Shown piece after piece: positions 33,253 through 46,295 of a DNA stretch of 64,000 nucleotides. The notes under the pieces were generated by a model. That model was not told the origin of the DNA. It made no database searches and saw only the letters and a list, made by a program, of their open reading frames with translations. Where the stretch lies: NCBI GenBank assembly GCA_013821605.1, contig JACDGP010000010.1, positions 1 to 64,000 of the forward strand. Direction: 5' to 3'. The stretch's first letter is position 1. Every line of letters starts with the position of its first letter. This DNA comes from Herpetosiphonaceae bacterium. GTDB taxonomy: Bacteria > Chloroflexota > Chloroflexia > Chloroflexales > Kallotenuaceae. A program made the position numbers and the translations under genes.

Positions 33253-33256
33253 TCAA
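33228..33256 (-). promoter_or_regulatory. Perfect consensus sigma-70 promoter
   Basis: Minus strand: TTGACA (33251-33256), 17-base spacer, TATAAT (33228-33233). Both hexamers match consensus exactly. Transcription should start near 33220 and run into the leader and SpoIIE phosphatase gene. The -35 box overlaps the stop codon of the STAND gene. Confidence 0.8.
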
Positions 33257-36200
33257 GGGTGGTTGGGATTCATACAGGTCGGTTGTCGATCAGTAATCCC
33301 ATATTGCGCACGCTCGTCATCCGAGAAGTCCCGCAGCAACCGCCCACAGAGATACTGGATCGTCGCGTGATAATCGGCGTCCCACAGCCGAGCTGTGCCA
33401 TCACTGCTGCCCGTGAGGACGACATGGCTGTCGGGTGAGAATGCTACACCGTTCAACGTGCCGTTGTGCCCCGTAAAGCGCCGAAGTTCAACTCCGGTCT
33501 CCGTGCTCCACAGCCGCGCCGTCCAATCCTGGCTCCCTGTGAGGACATACTTACCGTCCGGCGAAAACGCGACCGCCCATACAACGTCGGTGTGGCCGGT
33601 GAAGTGGCGTACTTCTTCGCCGGTTTCCACATCCCATAAGCGCATCATGCCATCCCAACTGCCCGTGAGGATGGAGCGCCCGTCCGGTGCGAAGGCAATG
33701 CTCGCTGCACCGTCCGGCAGGGTAAACACACGGAGTTGCTGGCCCGTTTGCGCATCCCAGAGCCGTGCTGTTTTATCAAAGCTGCCCGTGACCACAAACT
33801 TACTGTCGGGGGAATAGGCGACGCTAAAGACCTGGGTCGTGTGCCCGGCAAAGACCCGGAGCTGTTGACCCGTCTGGACGTCCCACAATTGCGCCGTGTT
33901 ATCACCACCGCCTGTGAGCACGGAGCGACCGTCGGGTGCGTAGGCTACAGCGTTCAGGTAGTTGCGGCCAGCGAAGATCCGGAGTTGTTGGCCGCTCTGG
34001 GCATCCCACAGCCGGGCGGTCTTGTCTATGCTCCCGGTGAGCACAAAGCGACCGTCGGGCGAGTATGCGACACTCTGCACTGCATCCTCATGACCAGCGA
34101 AGACGCGCACCTGCTGACCGGTTCGGATGTCCCACAGGCCGGCAGTCTTATCGAGACTCCCCGTGAGTACGTACTTCCCATCCGGCGAGAACACGACCTG
34201 CGTTACACCGCTCGCTTGGGCCGTGAACGTGGGCAGGTGCTGGTCTGAGCTCGTCGGGACATTCCATAGCCTGGCAGTCTTGTCTGCACTGCCTGTGAGG
34301 ACATGTTTTCCATCCGGAGAGAATGCGACCCCAAACACAAAGCTGGCGTGTCCAATGTAGCGGCGCAGTTCGGTACCAGTTCGCGTATCCCAAAGGCGCG
34401 CCGTTTTGTCATCACTACCTGTAAGCACGTAGCCGCCATTGGGCGAAAATGCTACAGCCTTGATGTATTCTTGATGCCCGGTGAACTGTCGCAGTTCGGT
34501 CGCTGTCCGAGCATCCCACAGTCGAGCCGTTTTATCATAGCTCCCGGTGAGGACATATTTGCTGTCAGGTGAATACGCAACGCTCTGCACCTCGCCCGCG
34601 TGTCCGGCGAAGATTCGTAGCTGTTGACCCGTCTGGGCATCCCACAGCCGAGCTGTTTTGTCCGCACTGCCTGTAAGCACGTATCTGCCATCAGGTGAAC
34701 AGGCGACACCCAACACGCCACCGGTGTGGCCAGCAAAAACCCGGATTTGCTGTCCGGTCTGGGCATCCCACAGCCGGGCCGTTTTGTCCAGACTTCCCGT
34801 AAGCACGTACTTGCCATCAGGTGAATAGGTGACAGTGTCCACTGCATCAGTATGACCGGCGAAGACACGCAATTGCTGACCGGTCCGAACATCCCATAGT
34901 CTTGCCGTCTTATCACCACCGCCCGTGAGCACGGTCGTGCCATCAGGGGAGAATGCGACACGCCATAGTTCCGCTGTGTGGCCTGTGAAGCGTCGCAGCT
35001 CCTGGCCCGTCTGCACATCCCACAGTCTTGCCGTCTTATCACCACCGCCTGTGATCACGGTGCGACCGTCGGGTGCGTAGGCGACGCCCCACAAATACTC
35101 AGTATGGCCAATAAATTGTTGGCGGGGATAATCGAGGGTCGCGGCTGCCTCAAGGGCAGCATCCCCCTGCGGCGAGTACAGGTTGCGCAGCGAGCGAATG
35201 CTTAGAAGGGCGATCACCTCGGCGTTCCCGCGCGCCTGGTACAAGGTGTTCGCTTCAGCCGCCAGGCGCTGGGCCTCCGAACGGGTCAAGTTTGCAGCCG
35301 ACGTTGCGGCGCTGTTGAGCGCCTGTCCTTGCGCGACGGTCGCGGTTGCCGCATTGCGCACTGCCTGCGTCTGTTTATCGAACGCAAATAGCGACAGACT
35401 CGCCGCTATCAGCAGGGAAACCGCCAGGACACCAACCAGAATGCGTAGCCGACTCGCCGCACGACGCTGTGCCGTAGCAACCTCCTGTGCTAGAGCTAGG
35501 TCACGGGCCTCACCCTCGCGCTTCGCCTCAGCCTGCCGGTCTTGTTCTGCCAGACTGGCCTCAAGATATGCTCGTTCATCCGGACTCAGCGTCAGCTTCC
35601 CGGCCCTGGCTAGCGCCACAAATTGTGCTAGTTGCGCGCCCGTCCCCAGGAAGCTTGCCTCGCGCGCACCATTGGTCCATGCTGTCGTAACGGCCAGCAA
35701 TCGTCGGTGGACCCGTAGGTCGTCGCGGCTCGCTTCGAGCCAACTACGCAGCCGTCCCCAGGTGCGTATCAGCGCCTCGTGGGCCACCTCGACGGTTGGT
35801 TCACGCGTCACGGGGTCTCGGTCGAAGGTGAGCAGCCGGTAGCGCCCGCAGGTGTCTATGACCCGGTCCATGACCTGCTCGTCGCCAGCCAGTTCCGCAC
35901 GACGGACGCGTCGCCGCGTGTCTTCCACCCCTTCGCCTAGTGTGACAAGCCGAAGGAAGAGTTGTCGTGCCGCTGCCTGACCCTGCCCGTCGAGACCAGC
36001 ATATAATTCGTCGGCGCGAGAGGCCAAGGTTCCCAACACACCGCCACTTGTCCGATAGGCGGTCAGCGAGAGGACCCGGTCCTGCTGGCGATCAAACAAC
36101 TCGGTGAGCGCATACTGCAGCAGCGGGAGCACGCCAGGCTGCGCCCCCACATCTGCGATGAGCGCCACAATTAGTTCCGGCTCCAATGTGACGCCCACCG

Positions 36201-37198
36201 CCGCGGCGGGTCGGGTGATCGCCTGCTCTAGTTCGTCGGTGGTCAGTGGCAAGACGACTTCAGTACACCGCCGCACGAGGCCGCCAAGGCCCAGATACAA
36301 CAGCGGTCGGTCGTAGAAATCGGCGCAATGTGACGATCACGCGGAGCCGGCTACGGGGTGCCAGAACCGCGACGAGCAAGCTATTCAGGAAGTGGAGCCG
36401 GGTTGCCTCATCCTCAACGAGGGTGAAAATCTCTTCGAACTGGTCGATCACCAGCAGGAGTTCGCTGTTGTCATTGCCGGGCAGCACGCGGTTGACGGCA
36501 CGCAGCAGACCGCGTTCATCTGCTTGAAGTTGTTCCAAAAGGCTGGCGGGTGGATTGACCGCCACGCGCAGCAGGGCTGCCTCCAGTTCGTCTAACGGAT
36601 GATCACCGGGGAGGAGTTCGGCCACGAACCAGTGTTCTGACCCTGGGAGACCGCCCTGCCGGATCGCGGGGACTAGCCCTGCACGGACCACACTCGACTT
36701 GCCACTACCGCTCGGGCCGACAACGGCGAGGAAGCGTGCGACGGTGCTTTCGCCGGCCAATCGCGCTAACAGCTGCTCTGTAAGGATCGTTCGCCCAAAG
36801 AAATCGGACGCGTCGGCCTCGGTAAACGGCCGGAGGCCCTTGTACGGGTTCCTTAGCGCTGGGAAGGAGGTTTCCAGCAAGGCCCGCAGTAAATTGGTGT
36901 CGTCCGGCGTTACGGTCAGAGCAGTCAGCGGATCGAGGGTTAACGGCGTGGGTGCCGAGTGGCCATTGCGTGCGGATGTTCGGGCGAGCTGGATGAAGCC
37001 GATGCGTTCCTCTCCTGCAACCGCCAGGACATCCGCGAGCCGCTCAACGATCTGACGCGACGGACGCAGGGCATCCGCCTCGATCTTCTTGATGGTAATC
37101 GCGGCACAGGCGACCAGACGCGCCAGTTCTTCCTGGGTCAGGTCCCGTGCTCGGCGGAGATCCTTGAGGATGCGCCCGAAGGATACGGGGTCGTGCAT
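33253..37198 (-). pseudogene. HTH-nSTAND1-WD40 protein, copy A, broken by a 2-base deletion
   Basis: Start ATG 37198 with GAGG upstream. Part 1 (37198 to about 36324): XRE-type helix-turn-helix (residues about 5-60, RARDLTQEELARLVACAAIT), then the nSTAND1 NTPase entry NPYKGLRPFTEADASDFFGR, Walker A VGPSGSGKSSV and Walker B LLLVIDQFEEIFTLV. Part 2 (about 36322 to 33253): rest of the NTPase, a membrane-like helix (ILVGVLAVSLLIAASLSLFA), and 14 WD40 repeats, i.e. two seven-bladed propellers, ending in a YHATIQYLCGRLLRDFSDDER tail. The junction at 36316-36328 reads TTGCGCCGATTTC where the intact copy C predicts Arg-Ala-Asp-Phe; two bases (GC) are missing. Everything else is intact, so this is a recent lesion or a sequence error. 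Confidence 0.85.
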
Positions 37199-37516
37199 CG
37201 ACACCTCGCTTGGTATATATCCCTTTTTGTACCCCTTATTCTATACATCCTCCTCTTCCAAAATGCAATGCTGGTGTGATGTACTAAGGGCACACCAGGC
37301 TCTAGGACACCGGCTTCGTGTGCCAGAGCTGGGGCATCTGTGCGAAGCCCTACCCGTTGGGTGGGAGTAGACGACGACAAGGAGGATGAGCATGGACGCT
37401 AGAAGGCCGACATACGGGCGGTATCGCTGACGGCCTTAAACTGATCACACCGTTCTCGCCCCCTCGCCCGCGTTGCCAGCGTCTGTCCGCCTGTTACGAA
37501 AGAAAGGAGCTACCCC
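37199..37516. other. Divergent intergenic region between STAND copy A and the lipoprotein hydrolases
   Basis: 318 bases with no full gene. It contains a promoter for copy A (37240-37268) and a micro-ORF at 37392-37430 on the plus strand (12 codons, MDARRPTYGRYR) behind a very strong AAGGAGGATGAGC. The ribosome site of the hydrolase (AAAGGAG) ends it. The micro-ORF could be a leader peptide or a relic; its start region resembles AGGAGGATGAAC-ATG near 41927 on the other strand. Confidence 0.45.
37240..37268 (-). promoter_or_regulatory. Sigma-70-type promoter for STAND copy A
   Basis: Minus strand: TTGCAT (37263-37268), 17-base spacer, TATAGA (37240-37245; TAGAAT two bases on is also possible). 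This gives a leader of about 35 bases before ATG 37198. Confidence 0.5.
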
Positions 37517-38569
37517 ATGCATCGCCAGTTCCTCGTGCTCACGCTGCTGCCCCTGACCTTCAGTCTCGCAGCTTGTGGCACCACGCAAGCTGCCCCGCAG
37601 GTCGCCGCGCAGCCCACCGTTGCCCCCACTGCCGCCACAAGCCCAACCATAGTCCCACAGCCTACAGTCGAACTCACTCCCACGACGATAGTCGCGATCC
37701 CCACGGCAAGTGCTGCACCGATGGCTGTTACAGTCGTGAATGAGGCTCTGTCCGTATTCCGCAAGAAAATAGATCTGGGCGGCTATGGCCTCTTTATCAA
37801 ATGCTTCGGCATGGGGAGCCCGACGGTCGTCCTTGATGCTGGTGGAACACGCCCGTCGAGTGACTGGGCTACCGTTATAATCGGAGTGATGAAATTCACA
37901 CGTGTCTGTGCCTATGACCGCGCGGGATTAGGCGAGAGCGACCCGGCACCGAAACCGCGGACCAGCCAAGATATGGTGAAGGACCTACATACCTTGTTAG
38001 TCAATGCCAATATTGCAGGACCCTATGTCCTGGTCGGGCATTCGGTGGCGGGCTGGAATGTCCAGTTGTACGCCAGCCAGTACCCGAAGGAGGTCGCCGG
38101 GATCGTCTTGGTCGATACCTCCCACCCTGACCAGTTTACCCGTGTGGTGGCGGCACTCCCGCCCAAGTCCTCAGGCGAAAGTGCTGACCTCACCCAGTTC
38201 CGGAAAGACTGGGAAGAAACCTATACTTCTCCCTATGCAAATTCGCCAGATAATCCCGAGGGACAGGACTTTGTTGCGAGCGCCGCACAAGTGCGCGCTG
38301 CCGGATCATTGGGTGACATCCTACTCGTCGTGCTCGCAGCCGGCAATCATGAATTTCCGCCGTCCTTTTCGGCAGATCTAGTGGCGAACATCGAGCATGT
38401 GTTGCTGGCCCTACAAAATGAGCACGCCGCCCTCTCGTCGAACAGCCTCTTAATTATGGCCAAAAGCAGTGGCCACTGCATCCACTGCGACCATCCTGAG
38501 ATCGTGAGTGATGCAATACAGCAGGTCGTTGAATCGGCGAGAAATCATACGCGGCTCAAGGCACCCTAA
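37517..38569 (+). CDS. Lipoprotein alpha/beta hydrolase
   Basis: 350 residues. The signal peptide ends in a lipobox, SLAACGTT, so the protein is lipid-anchored outside the cytoplasmic membrane; a Thr/Pro/Ala-rich spacer of about 50 residues follows. The hydrolase core shows the oxyanion-hole region VVLDAGGT, YDRAGLGESD, nucleophile elbow LVGHSVAGWNV (Ser), VDTSHPDQ, and the catalytic His in SSGHCIHCDHPEIV. The substrate is unknown; the fold covers esterases, peptidases and lactonases. AAAGGAG precedes ATG. It is followed after 73 bases by a second lipoprotein hydrolase and diverges from STAND copy A. Its C-terminus is duplicated as a relic at 41014-41193. Confidence 0.9.
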   Translation: MHRQFLVLTLLPLTFSLAACGTTQAAPQVAAQPTVAPTAATSPTIVPQPTVELTPTTIVAIPTASAAPMAVTVVNEALSVFRKKIDLGGYGLFIKCFGMGSPTVVLDAGGTRPSSDWATVIIGVMKFTRVCAYDRAGLGESDPAPKPRTSQDMVKDLHTLLVNANIAGPYVLVGHSVAGWNVQLYASQYPKEVAGIVLVDTSHPDQFTRVVAALPPKSSGESADLTQFRKDWEETYTSPYANSPDNPEGQDFVASAAQVRAAGSLGDILLVVLAAGNHEFPPSFSADLVANIEHVLLALQNEHAALSSNSLLIMAKSSGHCIHCDHPEIVSDAIQQVVESARNHTRLKAP

Positions 38570-38642
38570 TCGCGCTGTTCACTCTTTCTTACTCGATTCC
38601 TCATGTGGCTAGCACCTTCAGCCTATTTCACAAGGAGCTCCC

Positions 38643-39917
38643 ATGTCAAACTGTTTTACCATGTTTGCAGTTCTTTGCTTGACTGTTAGTCTTGCAGCCT
38701 GTGCTTCACTGCCATCGGTATCTCAGGTCGCCCCTACCACTGTGACATCAACCGCCACCTCTGTCTCCACCCCTCCGCCAACCGCGACCCCTATACCCAC
38801 CACCCCTGCACCAACCGTCACTCTTGCCCCCACTACACCTGCGCCAACCGCTACATCTGCTCAGACGGCTCCATCAGCAGCCGCTACAGCTTCCGGAGAC
38901 CGCCAACCGCCCCTAGACATCGCAGCCCAAGTTGATGCGCTGATGAATAAGTACGTCGCAGCGCACCTCTTTAGTGGCAGTGTGCACATCGCCCACAATG
39001 GGACCGTGCTGATCTCCAAGGGCTATGGTCTGGCGGATCAGGAGCAGAAGATACCGAATACACCACAGATACGGTTTAGCATTGCATCGCTGACGAAACA
39101 ATTCACGGCGATGGCCGTTTTGCAACTTCAACAACAAGGCAAGCTGCAGGTGCAGGACTCAGTCTGTCGATATGTGCCTGATTGTCCCACTGCCTGGCAA
39201 GGGATGACAATCCATCAGTTGTTGACACATACTGCCGGTGTGCCAGACTTGAGTGACGCAGACTTCCAAGCACTTCAGCCCACTCCCAACAGCTTCGAGC
39301 AACTCATTGCCAAGACCAAAAGCAAGCCGCTCGACTTTCAACCTGGCTCCAAATGGAGCTACAGCAATGCGGGCTATATGATTCTCGCGCTCATCATCGA
39401 GGGGGTGTCGGGGACATCATATCCCGCATTCTTGCAGAAGTCGATTTTCGCCCCGTTGCACATGAACGATACTGGCTACGTCCAGCCCAGTGATAAGGTA
39501 GCACTTGGCTATGACAATTCGTTTTCCAAGGCCGCCCCATTTGATCCGGTGCTGCTGTATGGTGCTGCCGGGCTCTTCTCCACGACGGAAGATCTTTACC
39601 GTTGGAGTCAAGCCCTCTCAACGACGCAATTGGTCTCGCAGAAGCTGCTTGACCAGATGTTCACGCCGTTCGCATCCGCACTGCCCGTTGGATCTGCAGA
39701 AGAACCTGGGGGCGCCTGGTATGGGTACGGGTGGGGCATAACCAAGCGCTTAAATCGGCGGATGGCCATCCATGAAGGCATCATCCGAGGATACCACAGT
39801 CTTGTTGAGCGCTATCTGGATGACAAGGTTTCGATCATCCTGCTCAGCAATCAGAATAATACGGAGCTGGATGACATTGGTAAGGCGCTCGCGCCGATCA
39901 TATTCAATGAAAAATGA
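38643..39917 (+). CDS. Lipoprotein serine beta-lactamase-family (class C-like/DD-peptidase) hydrolase
   Basis: 424 residues. Lipobox SLAACASL and a long Thr/Pro-rich spacer (about residues 25-85) tether the enzyme outside the membrane. The beta-lactamase-fold domain has the nucleophile motif SIASLTKQF (SxxK), YSNAGY (YxN), and HEGIIRG in place of the usual HxG loop. This family includes esterases, D-aminopeptidases and penicillin-binding-protein-like enzymes, so resistance is not implied. CAAGGAG precedes ATG 38643. It is transcribed with the alpha/beta hydrolase. A degraded copy of its 3' end appears at 41221-41270. Confidence 0.9.
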   Translation: MSNCFTMFAVLCLTVSLAACASLPSVSQVAPTTVTSTATSVSTPPPTATPIPTTPAPTVTLAPTTPAPTATSAQTAPSAAATASGDRQPPLDIAAQVDALMNKYVAAHLFSGSVHIAHNGTVLISKGYGLADQEQKIPNTPQIRFSIASLTKQFTAMAVLQLQQQGKLQVQDSVCRYVPDCPTAWQGMTIHQLLTHTAGVPDLSDADFQALQPTPNSFEQLIAKTKSKPLDFQPGSKWSYSNAGYMILALIIEGVSGTSYPAFLQKSIFAPLHMNDTGYVQPSDKVALGYDNSFSKAAPFDPVLLYGAAGLFSTTEDLYRWSQALSTTQLVSQKLLDQMFTPFASALPVGSAEEPGGAWYGYGWGITKRLNRRMAIHEGIIRGYHSLVERYLDDKVSIILLSNQNNTELDDIGKALAPIIFNEK

Positions 39918-40055
39918 GCGCTCTGCTTTCTACCGAGCTACGACGCTACCGCCAAAGAACCCTAGCGATGGCAACCAAGAGTGATGAGTTTTGCACCAAA
40001 CTGTTAGAGATCCGGTTCTTCCCCTGCTATCAGGACTGTTCGATATTGGTTTCGG

Positions 40056-41014
40056 TCACTCTGGACTGGTACCACCGATACTGTACTGGGCACGCTCATC
40101 AGCCGAGAAATCGCGCAGAAGCCGACCGGACAGGTAGCGAATCGTATCATGGTAATCGATATGCCATTGTCGCGCGCAGTGTTCTTTGCTACTAAGAAGG
40201 ATGGAGCGCCCATCGGGCGAGATCGCACCAGGGCCCATGCTCATGCGGCCTGGGAAACGGCGCACCTCCGCACCAGTCTCAACATCCCATAGTCGCGCGG
40301 TCTTGTCGGCGCTGCTGGTCAGCACACGCTGACCATCGGCTGTATACGCGACGCCCCAGACCACATCGGTGTGCCCGATGAGGCGCTGTAGCTCGCGGCC
40401 GGTCTCCGGGTCCCACAGGCGCACCGTCCCATCCCAGCTCCCAGTTAGCACCGTACGCCCATCCGGTGCGTAGGCCACGCTCGCCGCGCCGTCCGGTAGC
40501 GCAAGCACCTGGAGCGCAGTGCCGGTCCGGGCGTCCCAGAGCCGTGCCGTCTTATCGTAGCCGCCGGTAAGAATCTTCAGACCATCGGGAGCGTACGCGA
40601 CGTGGAACACTGCGCCCGTATGATCGGTAAAGGTGACAAGCTCGGCCCCGGTCGTGACATCCGACAACCGCGCCGTCTTGTCCCAACTCCCCGTGAGCAC
40701 CGAGCGACCATCCGGCGCATAGGCAACGTTATTGCTAGGAGGGGCGGTATGACCCAGGAAGCGACGTAGCTCCTGGCCGGTCTCTACATCCCAAAGCCGT
40801 GTGGTCAAGTCGCCGCTGCTGGTAAGCACATAGCGGCCATCTGGAGAGAAGGCCACGCCGATGATGTGGGACGTATGGCCCGCAAAGATCTTGAGCTCCT
40901 GACCGGTCTGCACATCCCAGAGCCGGACCGTTTTGTCTAGACTCCCCGTGAGCACATACCTACCGTCAGGTGAATAGGCTACACTGTCCATCGCATCGGT
41001 ATGGCCGGCGAAGA
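40056..41014 (-). pseudogene. WD40 fragment of a second STAND gene (copy B relic)
   Basis: Seven WD40 repeats (one propeller) and the same C-terminal tail as copies A and C (YHDTIRYLSGRLLRDFSADER). It lacks the HTH, NTPase and first propeller. The frame runs on to 41087, but from 41014 upward it is the antisense of an alpha/beta-hydrolase fragment, so the real homology ends there. No ribosome site or plausible start is seen. The last blade is decayed (GRMSMGPGAISPDGRS). Expression as a free propeller is possible but unsupported. Confidence 0.8.
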
Positions 41015-41193
41015 TGGAGCAGGCATGGCAAGCCATGCAAAAAGAGCAGGTTGCGCTCTCATCGAACAGCATCCAGATTATTGCCAAAGGGAGTAACTAC
41101 TGCATCCACTGCGACCATCCTGGCATCGTAGCTGATGCGATACAGCAGGTTGTTGACGCTGTGCGAAATCATACACGGCTCAAGGCACCCTAA
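41014..41193 (+). pseudogene. Relic of the alpha/beta hydrolase C-terminus
   Basis: Frame +, ending at TAA 41191-41193, encodes 59 residues that align with the end of the 37517-38569 hydrolase: ALSSNSIQIIAKGSNYCIHC against ALSSNSLLIMAKSSGHCIHC, and RNHTRLKAP identical at the end. The catalytic His (SGH) has become SNY. Nucleotide identity continues to the bases after the stop (TAATCGC). It is head-to-head with the truncated WD40 relic, just as the intact genes are. Confidence 0.85.
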
Positions 41194-41220
41194 TCGCTGA
41201 GCGCTCCAAACGGCAAGGGA

Positions 41221-41270
41221 GCGATCACCATGCTCAGCAATTAGAATGAGACCGTGCCAGATACATCAGG
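41221..41270 (+). pseudogene. Relic of the beta-lactamase-family gene 3' end
   Basis: GATCACCATGCTCAGCAA followed by TTAGAATGAGACCG resembles 39829-39878 (GATCATCCTGCTCAGCAA, TCAGAATAATACGG), i.e. the ILLSNQNNTE segment, with an in-frame stop where Gln stood. It is short, but it falls in the expected order after the hydrolase relic. Confidence 0.55.
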
Positions 41271-41444: not shown

Positions 41445-41840
41445 TTAGCGCTTCTCTGGCGTTGCAGAGGGCAAGGTCGCGCCCATGTGCCGTAGATCAT
41501 TACATTCTGCCGTGCGGAAGTTCTGTGGCTGCTGGCATTCCCACTGGCGAATGCCTATGCCCGCCGGCTTCGTGGGACCGGATGTCGCATCCCCAAAATG
41601 CCGCAGATCGTTGCAGCGCGCCGTGGCAAACTGCTGCGGATAACGACAACTTTCCATGATGCTGCTTGCCCCCGGCTCAACCCCCACTCCTTGCGTGGCA
41701 GTTGGCACGCTACTTGATTGCGACGTGGCGCCAGACGATGGAGGTACCATACCGCAGGCTGTCAATCCGCTCACACACATAAGCAGGGCGAGGCCAGTAC
41801 GATGGTGATTGAACCGCGCCCATTTTATGTATTTGTTCAC
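41445..41840 (-). CDS. Small lipoprotein with two cysteine-pair repeats
   Basis: 131 residues from GTG 41840 (GGAG 8 bases upstream). The signal peptide ends in the lipobox GLTACGM. After a Ser/Thr-rich spacer come two copies of a motif about 40 residues apart: CRYPQQFATARCNDLRHFG and CQQPQNFRTAECNDLRHMG. The pattern Cys-x3-Pro-Gln-x-Phe-x-Thr-Ala-x-Cys-Asn-Asp-Leu-Arg-His is not one I can name. Two Cys per repeat could form a disulphide outside the membrane. An upstream ATG 41927 behind AGGAGG is also open, but would put 60 residues before the lipobox. It diverges from STAND copy C. Confidence 0.68.
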   Translation of the reverse strand: MNKYIKWARFNHHRTGLALLMCVSGLTACGMVPPSSGATSQSSSVPTATQGVGVEPGASSIMESCRYPQQFATARCNDLRHFGDATSGPTKPAGIGIRQWECQQPQNFRTAECNDLRHMGATLPSATPEKR

Positions 41841-42218
41841 AGAGTGCGCTCCACGCGCCTGCTGTACGTTGCCCCCCACTACCGCCGCTGCCTGCATCCT
41901 TCCTCGGTCAACGCCTCGCGTCTTCATGTTCATCCTCCTGGTGTTGTTGGTCTGTCTGGAGAGAAGTAGAGCAGGAGGACGGTACCGGTGGGTATGGCTG
42001 AGCCCTACAATGAGCCATACCGCGAGCCATACAATACACACCTTGTAGGGTTTCCCATACTCCAGGGGGACAACCGCTTATGCGCCTCACGCGAACTCGT
42101 CGCTTGACTTATGACGTAGAATTGGCCATACAGTTTGCTCCCCGCGCCATCTGGCTATGTCATCCTCCAAGGCGATCTCGGCGATATCGATGGCGTGTGG
42201 ACGAACGTGGAGCGTGTA
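41841..42218. other. Divergent region upstream of STAND copy C
   Basis: 378 bases without an assured gene, though the lipoprotein frame could extend through part of it (to ATG 41927). The most striking content is the nested inverted repeat at 41992-42060. A TTGACT at 42104-42109 may be a -35 box for copy C, but no good -10 follows. Confidence 0.45.
41992..42060. repeat. Nested inverted repeats between two divergent genes
   Basis: GTATGGCT (41992-41999) is complementary to AGCCATAC (42013-42020, and again 42025-42032). CCCTACAA (42003-42010) is complementary to TTGTAGGG (42043-42050). An outer GTATGG (41992-41997) pairs with CCATAC (42055-42060). The two long-range pairings are compatible with one extended stem with a 3-5-base internal loop; the short-range pairing is an alternative fold. 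It may be an operator, an RNA switch or a mobile-element remnant. Confidence 0.55.
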
Positions 42219-45200
42219 ATGGACGACCCCGTCTCGTTCGGGCAATGGCTCAAACGTCGGCGCAAGGCTCTGGATCTTACCCAAGAACAACTCGCACGCC
42301 GGGTGGGCTGTGCCATGATGACAATCCAGAAAATTGAGGCCGACGAGCGTCGCCCATCTCGGGAGATCGCTGTGCTCTTGGCGGAGCAGTTGGAAGTTCC
42401 ACTTGACGATCGCCCCACTTTTGTGCGAATGGCGCGTGGCAGCCTGCAAGCAAACCCCTCGATCCCACTTCCTGTACCGCCTCTTCCCCAACCACATTCA
42501 CCTCACGATCCCGGCAACCAGATAACGAAGGGCTACGATATCCAGGTGCGCAGCGGCTCTGGGACGACATCGTCCCATCAGCACGATCGTCCTAGTGATC
42601 CCGCAGGTTCCGCTCCTCTCCAGGACGATCTGGAAGCACCGACCACAACAAATATGGCCGGTAGGGGCAACGATGCGTCGCTCCAAGTTCCGTTGCCGAA
42701 CCCCTTCAAAGGGCTGCGAGCATTTGGATCAGCAGATGTCGCCGATTTCTTTGGCCGAGACGTCTTGATCGCGCGTTTGATCGAACGGTTCGCGGAACAG
42801 GATGAGGTGCCGCGGTTGCTGGCCATTGTTGGCCCAAGCGGCAGTGGTAAATCCAGTGTCGTTCGCGCCGGTCTATTGCCTGCCTTGCGACGCGGTGCCC
42901 TGCCCGGCTCGGAGCAATGGTTCCTGGTTGAGGTGACACCGGGCACACATCCGCTTGAGGAGCTAGAGGCGGCCCTGCTGCGTGTGGCGGTCAATCCGCC
43001 GCCAAGCCTGCTGGAGCAACTTGAGGCCGACACACGCGGTCTAGTCCGCGCAGTGAAGCGGCTGCTACCACCCGATGAGGCTGTCGAACTCGTCCTGGTG
43101 ATTGACCAGTTCGAGGAACTCTTTACCCTAGTGGCCGAGGAGCGCCTCCGGGCTCATCTACTCGCGAGCCTCGTCGCAGCGGCCCAGGATCCCCGCTCAC
43201 GACTGCGTCTGGTCGTGACGCTACGTGCCGACTTCCTTGACCATGTACTCCAGTACATACAGTTTGGCGATTTGATCCGCTGCGGCATGGAACTCGTGTT
43301 GCCACTTGGGCCAGACGAGCTTGAGCAAGCCATTAGCCGACCAGTGGAACGTGTGGGACTCGCGCTTGAGCCCGGCCTCACTGCAGTGATCATCCGGGAT
43401 GTCAACGACCAGCCGGGCGCACTCCCATTGCTGCAGTACGCGTTGTCCGAACTGTTCGAGCGCAAGGCTGATCACACCCTGACACTTCAAGACTACCGGG
43501 CCAGCGGTGGCGTGCTCGGCGCGCTGACACGTCGCGCGGACGATCTATATGCCGCCCTCGCCGTGCCCACCCAGGAGGTGGCCCGGCAGCTCTTTCTGCG
43601 GCTGATCACCTTGGGCGACGGGGTCGAGGATACGCGGCGGAGGGTCCGGCAGTCGGAACTGCCGGGTGATCCTACGGCCCTCGCCACCGTCACGGCGACC
43701 TACGGTCGCTACCGGCTGTTGACCTTTGATCGGGACCCTATGACCCGCGAGCCGACCGTCGAGGTTGCCCACGAGGCGTTAATCCGCAGCTGGCCACGGC
43801 TGCGCGCCTGGCTCGATCAGAGCCGCGATGATCTCTGGGCGCAGCGACAACTTTTGATCGCCACCGATGAGTGGGCTGGTGCCGGTCACGACGCGACCTT
43901 CCTTGCCACGGGGGCGCGCTTGGCTCGCTTTAGCATGCTCGCCACGAGCGGCACGGTTGCCCTGAATACGCAGGAGCAAGCCTTCTTGCAGGAGAGCACG
44001 GCGGAACGGGAACGACAAGCGACGGTCGAGCGCGAGCGACAAGCGCGTGAGGCGATGCTACAACGCCGTGCGACCAATCGCTTGCGCTTCCTCGCTGCGA
44101 CCCTCGCCAGCTTTCTGGCGGTCGTCACGGTGTTATCGTTGCTGCTTTTAGCGAGTCGGAACGATGCCATCGTGCAGCGCAAACAAGCGGTCGACAATGC
44201 GGTCACGGCAGTGGCTAACCTAGCTCGCTCGGAAGCCCAGCGCTTGGCGGCCGAGGCCGGTGTCCTCTACCAGGGAAGTGGCAATGCCGACGTCGTCGCC
44301 TTGCTGAGCATCCGCTCGATCCAGGCTCAGTACTCACCCCAGGGAGACGCAGCGCTGACAAACGCGACACTGTTAGACTATCCCCATCAGGTGTTTGTCG
44401 GGCACCGTGCGCCGCTCCAGACCGTTGCTTGGACGCCTGATGGAAAGGCCGTCCTCACCGGCAGCCAGGACGGGACGGCGCTGCTCTGGGATCTCCAGAC
44501 GGCAAAAATCCGCCAGACCTTTAATGTTGGCAGTGCTGTGACCAGTGTCGTCGTTTCGCCCAATGGTCAGGATGTGCTCATTGGTAGCTTCGGGGGCACT
44601 GTCCAGCTCTGGGAGCTTGCGACCGCTAAGCCGCTGCGGTCCTTTAGCGGGACCAGCGGACCGATTGCCACGGTTGCCTTTGCCCCCGATGGGCGGCACG
44701 TCCTCAGTACCAGTGAAGATACGGCCTTCCTTTGGGACGCTCAGACTGGACAGGTTGTCCAGAAATTTGTCGGGCATGCGTCTGGGCTGTGGAGCGTCGC
44801 CATCTCAAGCGATGGTCGGACTGTGCTCACGGCCAGTGACGATACCACGGCACGGCTGTGGAATGCCGCAACAGGTCAAGAAATCCAAACGTTCCGCGGT
44901 CATACGAAGGCCGTCGAAACTGCCGTATTCTCACCCGATGGCGAGGCGGTCTTAACGGGCAGCGATGACAAGACGGCGCGGCTGTGGGACGTGAAGACGG
45001 GGCAGGAGATCCGTCGCTTCACCGGCCATACCGATATCGTCTATGGCGCTATCTTCTCACCCGATGGGCACCAGGTTGTGACCGCGAGCGGGGATCGTAC
45101 CACGCGCGTGTGGGCGCGCGATACAGGACAGGAGTTGCAGCGTTTTACCGGTCACACCACCATGGTGCGCAGTGTTGTCTTCTCGCCCGACGGTCAATTT

Positions 45201-46295
45201 CTGCTGACGGGCAGCGATGACAACACGGCTCAACTCTGGGAAATGCGGTCGGTCCACCTTCCCCGATTAATCGGCCATACTGCTGGAGTGCGTCGCGTGG
45301 TCTTTGCGCCGGATGGGGGATCGGTCCTCACGGCAAGCGACGATGGCACGGCACGACTATGGGATGTGAAGACGGGGCAGGAGATCCGTCGCTTCACCGG
45401 CCATACCAGTGCCATCTCAAGCGTTGCCATCTCGCCGGATGGGAGCTTGGTGTTGACCGGGAGTGAAGACCGTACCGCCTGCCTCTGGGATGCGAAGACA
45501 GCGCGGCAGATCCGCTGCTTTCCCGGTCATACCGATGCCGTCTCGAGTGTTGCCTTCTCGCCCGATGGTGCTGCTGTGCTCACTGGGAGCGTTGATCGTA
45601 CGGGTCGCCTATACAATGCACGCACCGGGGCGTTCCTCCGCGCGTTGAACGGTAAGCACGGGGACTGGGTAAATGCGGTGGCCTTCTCACCCGACGGTCG
45701 CTTGGCGCTGACCGGGAGTGATGACCGCACGGTGGAGGTGTGGGATGTAGCGACGGGGAAGGGCATCGTGACCTTGGCAGGCCACACCGGGAATGTGTTC
45801 GACGCCGTGTTTTCGCCGGATGGGAAGACAGTCCTAACGGGCAGCAAAGACGACACTGCGCGACTGTGGGATGTGCAGACTGGCAACGAGGTACATCGGT
45901 TCGTGGGGCATACCGGGCAGATCAGGGCCGTCGCCTTTGCCCCTCAAGGGAAGACAATCTTGACGGGCAGCGAGGATGGCACCGCCCGCTTGTGGGATGT
46001 GCAATCGGGCAGCGAACTGCGACGCTTCACCGGCCATGTAGCGGAGGTGCTCACCGTTGCCTTCTCGTCGGATGGGCGTAGGATCGTCACGGGGAGTGCT
46101 GATGGCACGGCCCAACTGTGGGACACGGACTATCACGACACCATTCGATCGCTCTGCAGCCGGCTGCACCGCGATCTATCAAGCGAGGAGCGGGTGCAAT
46201 ACGGCATCCGCGACCAAACACCGACGTGTCCGTCCGCAGCGCAGTCGGCCACACTGGTGCCAACGAGGAGTACCAATTCGCCTACACAGCCATGA
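42219..46295 (+). CDS. HTH-nSTAND1 NTPase-WD40 protein, intact copy C
   Basis: 1358 residues from ATG 42219 (GGAG upstream; the frame opens at 42135). Residues 1-65: XRE-type helix-turn-helix (ALDLTQEQLARRVGCAMMTI). Disordered linker to about 165. nSTAND1 NTPase about 165-560: NPFKGLRAFGSADVADFFGR, Walker A VGPSGSGKSSV, Walker B LVLVIDQFEELFTLV, and VTLRADFLDHVLQ. A hydrophobic helix (FLAATLASFLAVVTVLSLLLL) near 650, then 14 WD40 repeats (two propellers). STAND proteins act as ATP-dependent switches that oligomerise on ligand sensing; here a DNA-binding HTH replaces the usual effector. Blades 5/6 and 8/9 share a 42-bp identical stretch. Homologous to broken copy A. Confidence 0.92.
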   Translation: MDDPVSFGQWLKRRRKALDLTQEQLARRVGCAMMTIQKIEADERRPSREIAVLLAEQLEVPLDDRPTFVRMARGSLQANPSIPLPVPPLPQPHSPHDPGNQITKGYDIQVRSGSGTTSSHQHDRPSDPAGSAPLQDDLEAPTTTNMAGRGNDASLQVPLPNPFKGLRAFGSADVADFFGRDVLIARLIERFAEQDEVPRLLAIVGPSGSGKSSVVRAGLLPALRRGALPGSEQWFLVEVTPGTHPLEELEAALLRVAVNPPPSLLEQLEADTRGLVRAVKRLLPPDEAVELVLVIDQFEELFTLVAEERLRAHLLASLVAAAQDPRSRLRLVVTLRADFLDHVLQYIQFGDLIRCGMELVLPLGPDELEQAISRPVERVGLALEPGLTAVIIRDVNDQPGALPLLQYALSELFERKADHTLTLQDYRASGGVLGALTRRADDLYAALAVPTQEVARQLFLRLITLGDGVEDTRRRVRQSELPGDPTALATVTATYGRYRLLTFDRDPMTREPTVEVAHEALIRSWPRLRAWLDQSRDDLWAQRQLLIATDEWAGAGHDATFLATGARLARFSMLATSGTVALNTQEQAFLQESTAERERQATVERERQAREAMLQRRATNRLRFLAATLASFLAVVTVLSLLLLASRNDAIVQRKQAVDNAVTAVANLARSEAQRLAAEAGVLYQGSGNADVVALLSIRSIQAQYSPQGDAALTNATLLDYPHQVFVGHRAPLQTVAWTPDGKAVLTGSQDGTALLWDLQTAKIRQTFNVGSAVTSVVVSPNGQDVLIGSFGGTVQLWELATAKPLRSFSGTSGPIATVAFAPDGRHVLSTSEDTAFLWDAQTGQVVQKFVGHASGLWSVAISSDGRTVLTASDDTTARLWNAATGQEIQTFRGHTKAVETAVFSPDGEAVLTGSDDKTARLWDVKTGQEIRRFTGHTDIVYGAIFSPDGHQVVTASGDRTTRVWARDTGQELQRFTGHTTMVRSVVFSPDGQFLLTGSDDNTAQLWEMRSVHLPRLIGHTAGVRRVVFAPDGGSVLTASDDGTARLWDVKTGQEIRRFTGHTSAISSVAISPDGSLVLTGSEDRTACLWDAKTARQIRCFPGHTDAVSSVAFSPDGAAVLTGSVDRTGRLYNARTGAFLRALNGKHGDWVNAVAFSPDGRLALTGSDDRTVEVWDVATGKGIVTLAGHTGNVFDAVFSPDGKTVLTGSKDDTARLWDVQTGNEVHRFVGHTGQIRAVAFAPQGKTILTGSEDGTARLWDVQSGSELRRFTGHVAEVLTVAFSSDGRRIVTGSADGTAQLWDTDYHDTIRSLCSRLHRDLSSEERVQYGIRDQTPTCPSAAQSATLVPTRSTNSPTQP
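44991..45032 (+). repeat. 42-bp direct repeat within WD40 coding region (first copy)
   Basis: Identical to 45366-45407, 375 bases away, i.e. 125 codons or three blades. It encodes VKTGQEIRRFTGHT. Flanking blades differ, so the identity suggests recent conversion or duplication of a blade boundary. Confidence 0.85.
45366..45407 (+). repeat. 42-bp direct repeat within WD40 coding region (second copy)
   Basis: Second copy of the perfect repeat at 44991-45032, in the same reading frame. Confidence 0.85.

Follow-up and report, generated by a model that had tools for sequence, protein, structure and literature searches.

We analyse here a unit of three genes in a 64-kb stretch of contig C26 (hereafter the window), within the 5.88-Mb genome of a member of the order Chloroflexales. 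In this unit, called copy A, a regulator composed of a helix-turn-helix (HTH) domain, an nSTAND1 nucleoside triphosphatase (NTPase) and WD40 repeats diverges from an alpha/beta-hydrolase lipoprotein, and a second lipoprotein gene, of the PF00144 (S12) family, follows 73 bp past the hydrolase (Table 1). The unit is most probably a self-contained cassette, in which the STAND protein would act as a transcription factor that reads an array of its own, and so control its own gene together with the divergent exported serine hydrolases. What is conserved elsewhere is the layout, namely an XRE-STAND regulator, a divergent exported protein and a 12-bp array; the composition is not conserved, and the partner protein varies.

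A 12-bp array ahead of the regulator genes

The candidate operator is built of 12-bp units, for which an expectation-maximisation matrix gives the consensus GCGATACAAAAA, written for the strand that carries the STAND gene. Direct alignment of three intergenic regions revealed no common block, and the 12-bp period emerged only through repeat finding, which located repeats at this spacing in the intergenic regions of copy C, another regulator in the window, and of contig C128 of the same genome. A matrix obtained by expectation-maximisation with this genome excluded from training, when run over both strands of the window, ranks array A first (24.8 bits) and array C second (23.3 bits), while the next unrelated place scores 13.5 bits. 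Similarly, a sequence model built from 17 arrays of other genomes (model R1) finds its top match of the whole genome at 37216-37244, which is array A (E 0.01); its second and third matches lie upstream of HTH-NB-ARC-TPR genes. On contig C201 there is also a second array (L276, G000:C201:4754), downstream of an HTH-NB-ARC-TPR gene and before another gene.

The same period recurs upstream of HTH-STAND genes in general. Repeats in 15.3 of 42 such upstream regions fit a lag of 12 bp better than any other, where 1.7 regions would be expected (P 4e-11). At a threshold of at least 15 bits, with cross-validated scoring, 20 of the 42 regions contain an array, and 1 of 42 does so in the antisense direction. 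The controls are nearly empty: none of 40 nSTAND1 genes without an HTH and 3 of 582 other genes reach the threshold, and two of these three are themselves HTH-STAND genes under alternative gene models. Among 82 Chloroflexales genomes, 12 of the 27 matches at E<=0.2 that were not used in training fall directly upstream of an HTH-STAND gene, and a sample of the phylum contains the pairing of array and HTH-STAND gene in two further families. Three other array matches, L288 (G030:C17), L306 (G059:C242) and L278 (G000:C193), have no HTH-STAND gene and precede, on the opposite strand, genes for predicted lipoproteins or secreted proteins; these genes are possible distant targets.

Arrays comprise 2-5 units and end about 10-15 bp ahead of the start codon of the regulator. 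Farther upstream lies an element with the consensus TATTACACCACA, mostly at about 26, 38 or 50 bp from the array, distances that keep to the 12-bp lattice (log-likelihood 92 for this phasing, shuffled maximum 42). Read backwards, the element looks like an extended -10 box of the divergent gene and may be a promoter; ahead of array A, where it reads TAGTACATCACA, the complementary strand is TGTGATGTACTA and faces the hydrolase. This resemblance raises the question of whether the array itself is a promoter or some other marker element that the STAND protein does not bind, especially since TACAAT, a near match to a -10 box, is frequent in the first unit (at least 5 positions agree with TATAAT in 37%). 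We consider this improbable: a sigma-70 -35 box is not enriched upstream of the array, arrays are absent from genes without an HTH, and the pentamer that distinguishes one array from another is common within arrays, not between them, and tracks the residues of the recognition helix.

That last pattern bears on binding. With unit bases counted from 0, and HTH residues numbered by alignment column, bases 0-4 agree 77% of the time within one array and 44% between arrays (0 of 2000 permutations), and an ACAA core is common to all units. Among 420 pairings of an HTH column with a unit base, the two strongest signals couple recognition-helix residue 27 to base 2 and residue 24 to base 3, at permutation-corrected P values of about 0.01 and 0.05, respectively. 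When residue 27 is Arg or Lys, base 2 is G in 21 of 22 cases; when it is Gln, Tyr or Val, in 0 of 6. Arrays outside the derivation set mostly follow both rules: of 9 readable cases with Arg 27, 8 have G, and AT accompanies Ile or Val at residue 24 in 5 of 5, the exceptions in this set being L283 and the Lys of L255. Because bases 2 and 3 covary with the recognition helix, direct binding is supported, and the array appears to be read by the HTH of the STAND protein. Within the window, regulator A (Lys 27, Ile 24) has an array that reads GGG- and regulator C (Gln 27, Met 24) one that reads GCC-, a difference that may insulate the two neighbours from one another.

Divergent neighbours and varying partners

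The layout of copy A is typical of its class. XRE-HTH-STAND genes of Chloroflexales, whether of the nSTAND1-WD40 or the NB-ARC-TPR kind, diverge from their neighbour in 39 of 41 cases, as compared with 180 of 602 other genes (30%; P 2e-17) and 8 of 37 nSTAND1 genes without an HTH, in counts made with a codon-based gene caller over ~125 loci. The divergent neighbour is predicted to be exported for 20 of 39 HTH-STAND genes versus 27 of 180 other genes (P 4e-6). These exported neighbours are often enzymes; according to Pfam, they include an S41 peptidase lipoprotein, a GH81 glucanase, a subtilase and a secreted serine hydrolase. HTH-nSTAND1-WD40 relatives are present in other Chloroflexales; at L081 and L083 the divergent gene encodes another secreted alpha/beta hydrolase (79% identical between the two loci), and at L162, which lies in another Chloroflexi genome, its product is a SnoaL lipoprotein. 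In the genome studied here, all three hydrolase genes adjoin an HTH-STAND or WD40-regulator gene, the regulators being of two kinds. One of these hydrolases is a paralogue on contig C128, with 65% amino acid identity to that of copy A; it follows a secreted beta-propeller gene, and the pair diverges from an HTH-NB-ARC-TPR regulator.

A first-pass annotation of this DNA had proposed that the three genes form a functional system. We searched for co-occurrence in 82 genomes of Chloroflexales, in 158 of the class and in one scan of the whole GTDB, and did not find the exact composition (STAND, hydrolase and S12) outside this genome. The whole-GTDB scan, run with hydrolase A alone, gave no relatives; within the class the relatives are distant, with best full-length matches of about 36-47% identity, and in the neighbourhoods examined no HTH-STAND gene of the copy A kind stands beside them. 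A scan with the HTH-nSTAND1 alignment recovered mostly nSTAND1 proteins without a detectable HTH. The pairing of a STAND switch with membrane-tethered enzymes looks non-accidental, as had been proposed, but the three-family adjacency was not found elsewhere in these searches and the partner varies.

The enzymes could also be regarded as effectors of a conflict or anti-phage system, in which nSTAND1-WD40 senses the invader. STAND-type conflict systems, with STAND-type ATPases and varied partners, have been described from multicellular bacteria, Chloroflexi included (PMC7159879), and in the same genomes as our HTH-bearing genes, HTH-less nSTAND1-WD40 genes are arranged in tandem with others, for instance those for CHAT proteases. 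Unlike in those systems, however, the HTH-bearing members have no co-operonic effector and are divergent from their neighbours, the enzymes are exported lipoproteins, and the partner protein varies. PADLOC yields only generic HTH and NTPase matches, with no match to a core protein, and no evidence of phage defence was found. We therefore give this explanation very little weight. As to the HTH-less genes themselves, those at L108-L132 often overlap the upstream gene by a few bases, and this gene was CHAT in 2 of 2 cases tested by Pfam; they may represent another type of nSTAND1 system that coexists with the HTH-bearing one.

Several observations weigh against the cassette reading. About half of the HTH-STAND upstream regions score under 15 bits, three loci (L283, L083 and L255, the last with Lys) violate the residue-27 rule, and the middle unit of array A itself (GGT) violates the residue-24 rule. 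The exact pair of hydrolase and beta-lactamase-fold genes was found only in this genome. Moreover, regulator A is frameshifted in the assembly as it stands: a 2-nt frameshift near 36320 (36300-36345), inside nSTAND1, splits it into open reading frames at 36260-37204 and 33253-36300, and may be either a recent, real mutation or an assembly error. Finally, gene starts and gene calls come from our own heuristic codon model, export is predicted by a simple lipobox and signal-peptide heuristic, and the genomes and paralogues are akin, which makes the P values optimistic.

The copies in the window

Table 1. Features of copies A and C and of the relic between them (positions in the window)
Feature	Position	Strand	Basis
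Copy A regulator, HTH_31 - nSTAND1 - WD40	33253-37204	minus	Pfam; 14 WD40 repeats
Array of regulator A, three 12-bp units TGTATAGAATAA GGGGTACAAAAA GGGATATATACC	37212-37247	minus	held-out matrix
Upstream element TAGTACATCACA (consensus TATTACACCACA)	37275-37286	minus	39 bp before array A
Alpha/beta-hydrolase lipoprotein, copy A	37517-38569	plus	lipobox SLAAC, GHS nucleophile motif, conserved His320
PF00144 (S12 / class-C-like) serine hydrolase lipoprotein, copy A	38643-39917	plus	SLTK, YSN, HEG motifs
Relic WD40 regulator, 3' part, without HTH or NTPase	40056-41014	minus	blastn E 1e-47
Deletion junction, 8-bp microhomology CGGCGAAG	41006-41013		
Relic hydrolase, C-terminal 61 codons, open in frame	41007-41193	plus	blastn vs copy A
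Relic beta-lactamase-fold 3' end	41214-41267	plus	matches 39824-39878
Small predicted lipoprotein, divergent partner of copy C	41445-41957	minus	lipobox LTAC
Array of regulator C, GCCCTACAATGA GCCATACCGCGA GCCATACAATAC	42002-42037	plus	held-out matrix
Copy C regulator, intact HTH - nSTAND1 - WD40	42219-46295	plus	nSTAND1 E 2e-116, 13 WD40

Beside copy A lies a collapsed copy, B, whose remnants of all three genes retain the order and orientation of A, as the first-pass annotation had recognised. The relic WD40 region aligns with that of A across the native C-terminus (187/316 amino acids), and the relic hydrolase at 41007-41197 is 79.6% identical in DNA to 38383-38573 of copy A (E 2e-44). The beta-lactamase-fold end, which contains an in-frame TAG and a 1-nt gap, has a score reached by none of 2000 shuffles and none of 1200 other 100-bp pieces of the window. 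The three genes are present twice as a unit in the window. The large deletion that had been suggested as the cause of the fusion between the WD40 gene and the hydrolase end is supported by the 8-bp microhomology at the junction, a sequence that recurs in WD40 blades of copy A and also in the hydrolase of C128. The relic has lost the HTH, the NTPase and the operator.

Differences between relic and copy A, counted by codon position, number 90/82/188 in the WD40 region and 9/9/21 in the hydrolase. This dominance of third positions suggests that selection probably acted on the relic copy during most of its existence, the collapse having come late. Elsewhere in this genome (L277, G000:C204:26895), an orphan array precedes another collapsed gene, in which an internal deletion has apparently brought an nSTAND1-like N-terminus up against a WD40 end, and a caspase-like gene follows. 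Collapse of WD40 regulators seems to be recurrent.

The relic had initially been taken for a local tandem duplicate of A, in keeping with its adjoining position and its like order and orientation. The hydrolase ends do not favour this origin: per 186 nt there are 39 differences between relic and A, 37 between relic and C128, and 41 between A and C128, and at the protein level the relic is nearer to C128 (47/61) than to A (40/61). The three hydrolases of the genome seem, from these distances, to have radiated at about equal depth, and a local duplication is consequently rather unlikely.

The PF00144 lipoprotein scores 230 bits against a Pfam cut-off of 27 and carries SxxK and YxN motifs, which assigns it to the S12 fold, and its best match in the PDB is Flp (4gdn; E 1.5e-35). 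It shares the SxxK, YxN and HxG motifs with S12 or class C-like serine hydrolases such as Flp, the R61 DD-peptidase and the alkaline D-peptidase (4y7p). Against the NCBIfam model bla_class_C it scores 72 bits, where the cut-off is 415; lying so far under the cut-off, it gives no indication of a resistance function. As for copy C, its divergent lipoprotein contains two Cys-containing repeats (CxxPQxFxTAxCNDLRHxG) and has no close relatives among the 82 Chloroflexales genomes.

A proposed mechanism and its known counterparts

The cassette would work as follows. The XRE-HTH-STAND protein would be a local transcription factor that binds the 12-bp tandem array in the divergent intergenic region. 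The array sits close to the regulator start and probably overlaps the regulator's own promoter, and through it the protein would control itself as well as the divergent transcription unit, which in copy A comprises the two lipoprotein serine hydrolases. If MalT and AfsR are a guide, nSTAND1 would supply the ATP switch and the WD40 repeats would do the sensing. The P-loop (GPSGSGKSS) and Walker B (VIDQFEE) motifs are intact in regulators A and C, and the core columns are invariant in alignment A1. The relic, in turn, would be an independent, older copy of the cassette, which lost the regulator half, the operator and most of the hydrolase by deletion at the microhomology.

MalT, an activator of E. 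coli, is likewise a STAND transcription factor and possesses a sensor domain, but its HTH is C-terminal and of the LuxR type, and its boxes are of another kind; the HTH of the present proteins is N-terminal and of the XRE type. MalT has been named as a STAND protein (PMC10936776). Other counterparts are AfsR and the large Streptomyces antibiotic regulatory proteins (SARPs), where one protein joins a STAND switch (NB-ARC/NOD) to a domain that binds DNA and to a sensor made of repeats, TPR in their case. Copy C combines these three elements in one protein, and copy A has all the parts, frameshifted. AfsR and the large SARPs of Streptomyces use direct-repeat operators at a spacing of about one helical turn (PMC10936776, PMC10972967). 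SARPs, however, have an OmpR-type domain plus BTAD and a spacing of 11 or 22 bp near the -35 box, whereas Pfam assigns HTH_31 and no BTAD to the present proteins, whose repeat period is 12; they differ further in their arrays, which hold 2-5 units, in their divergent neighbours, which encode exported proteins, and in the WD40 repeats of some members. Recognition of direct repeats has been described as confined to few bacterial regulators (PMC9723621).

More broadly, and only tentatively, the NLR-like STANDs of Chloroflexota might form a large set of mutually insulated switches. Each would oligomerise on its own array with a 12-bp lattice, read by a helix code of two residues in which residue 27 specifies base 2 and residue 24 specifies base 3, and each would control one divergent exported cassette, with the DNA templating the oligomer. 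Filamentous Chloroflexota have many XRE-HTH-STAND proteins, and we found no description of an operator or target for them in the open-access literature. The array, the regulator-specific pentamer and the divergent exported protein together give each NLR-like STAND a predicted site and a predicted target, testable by binding assays.

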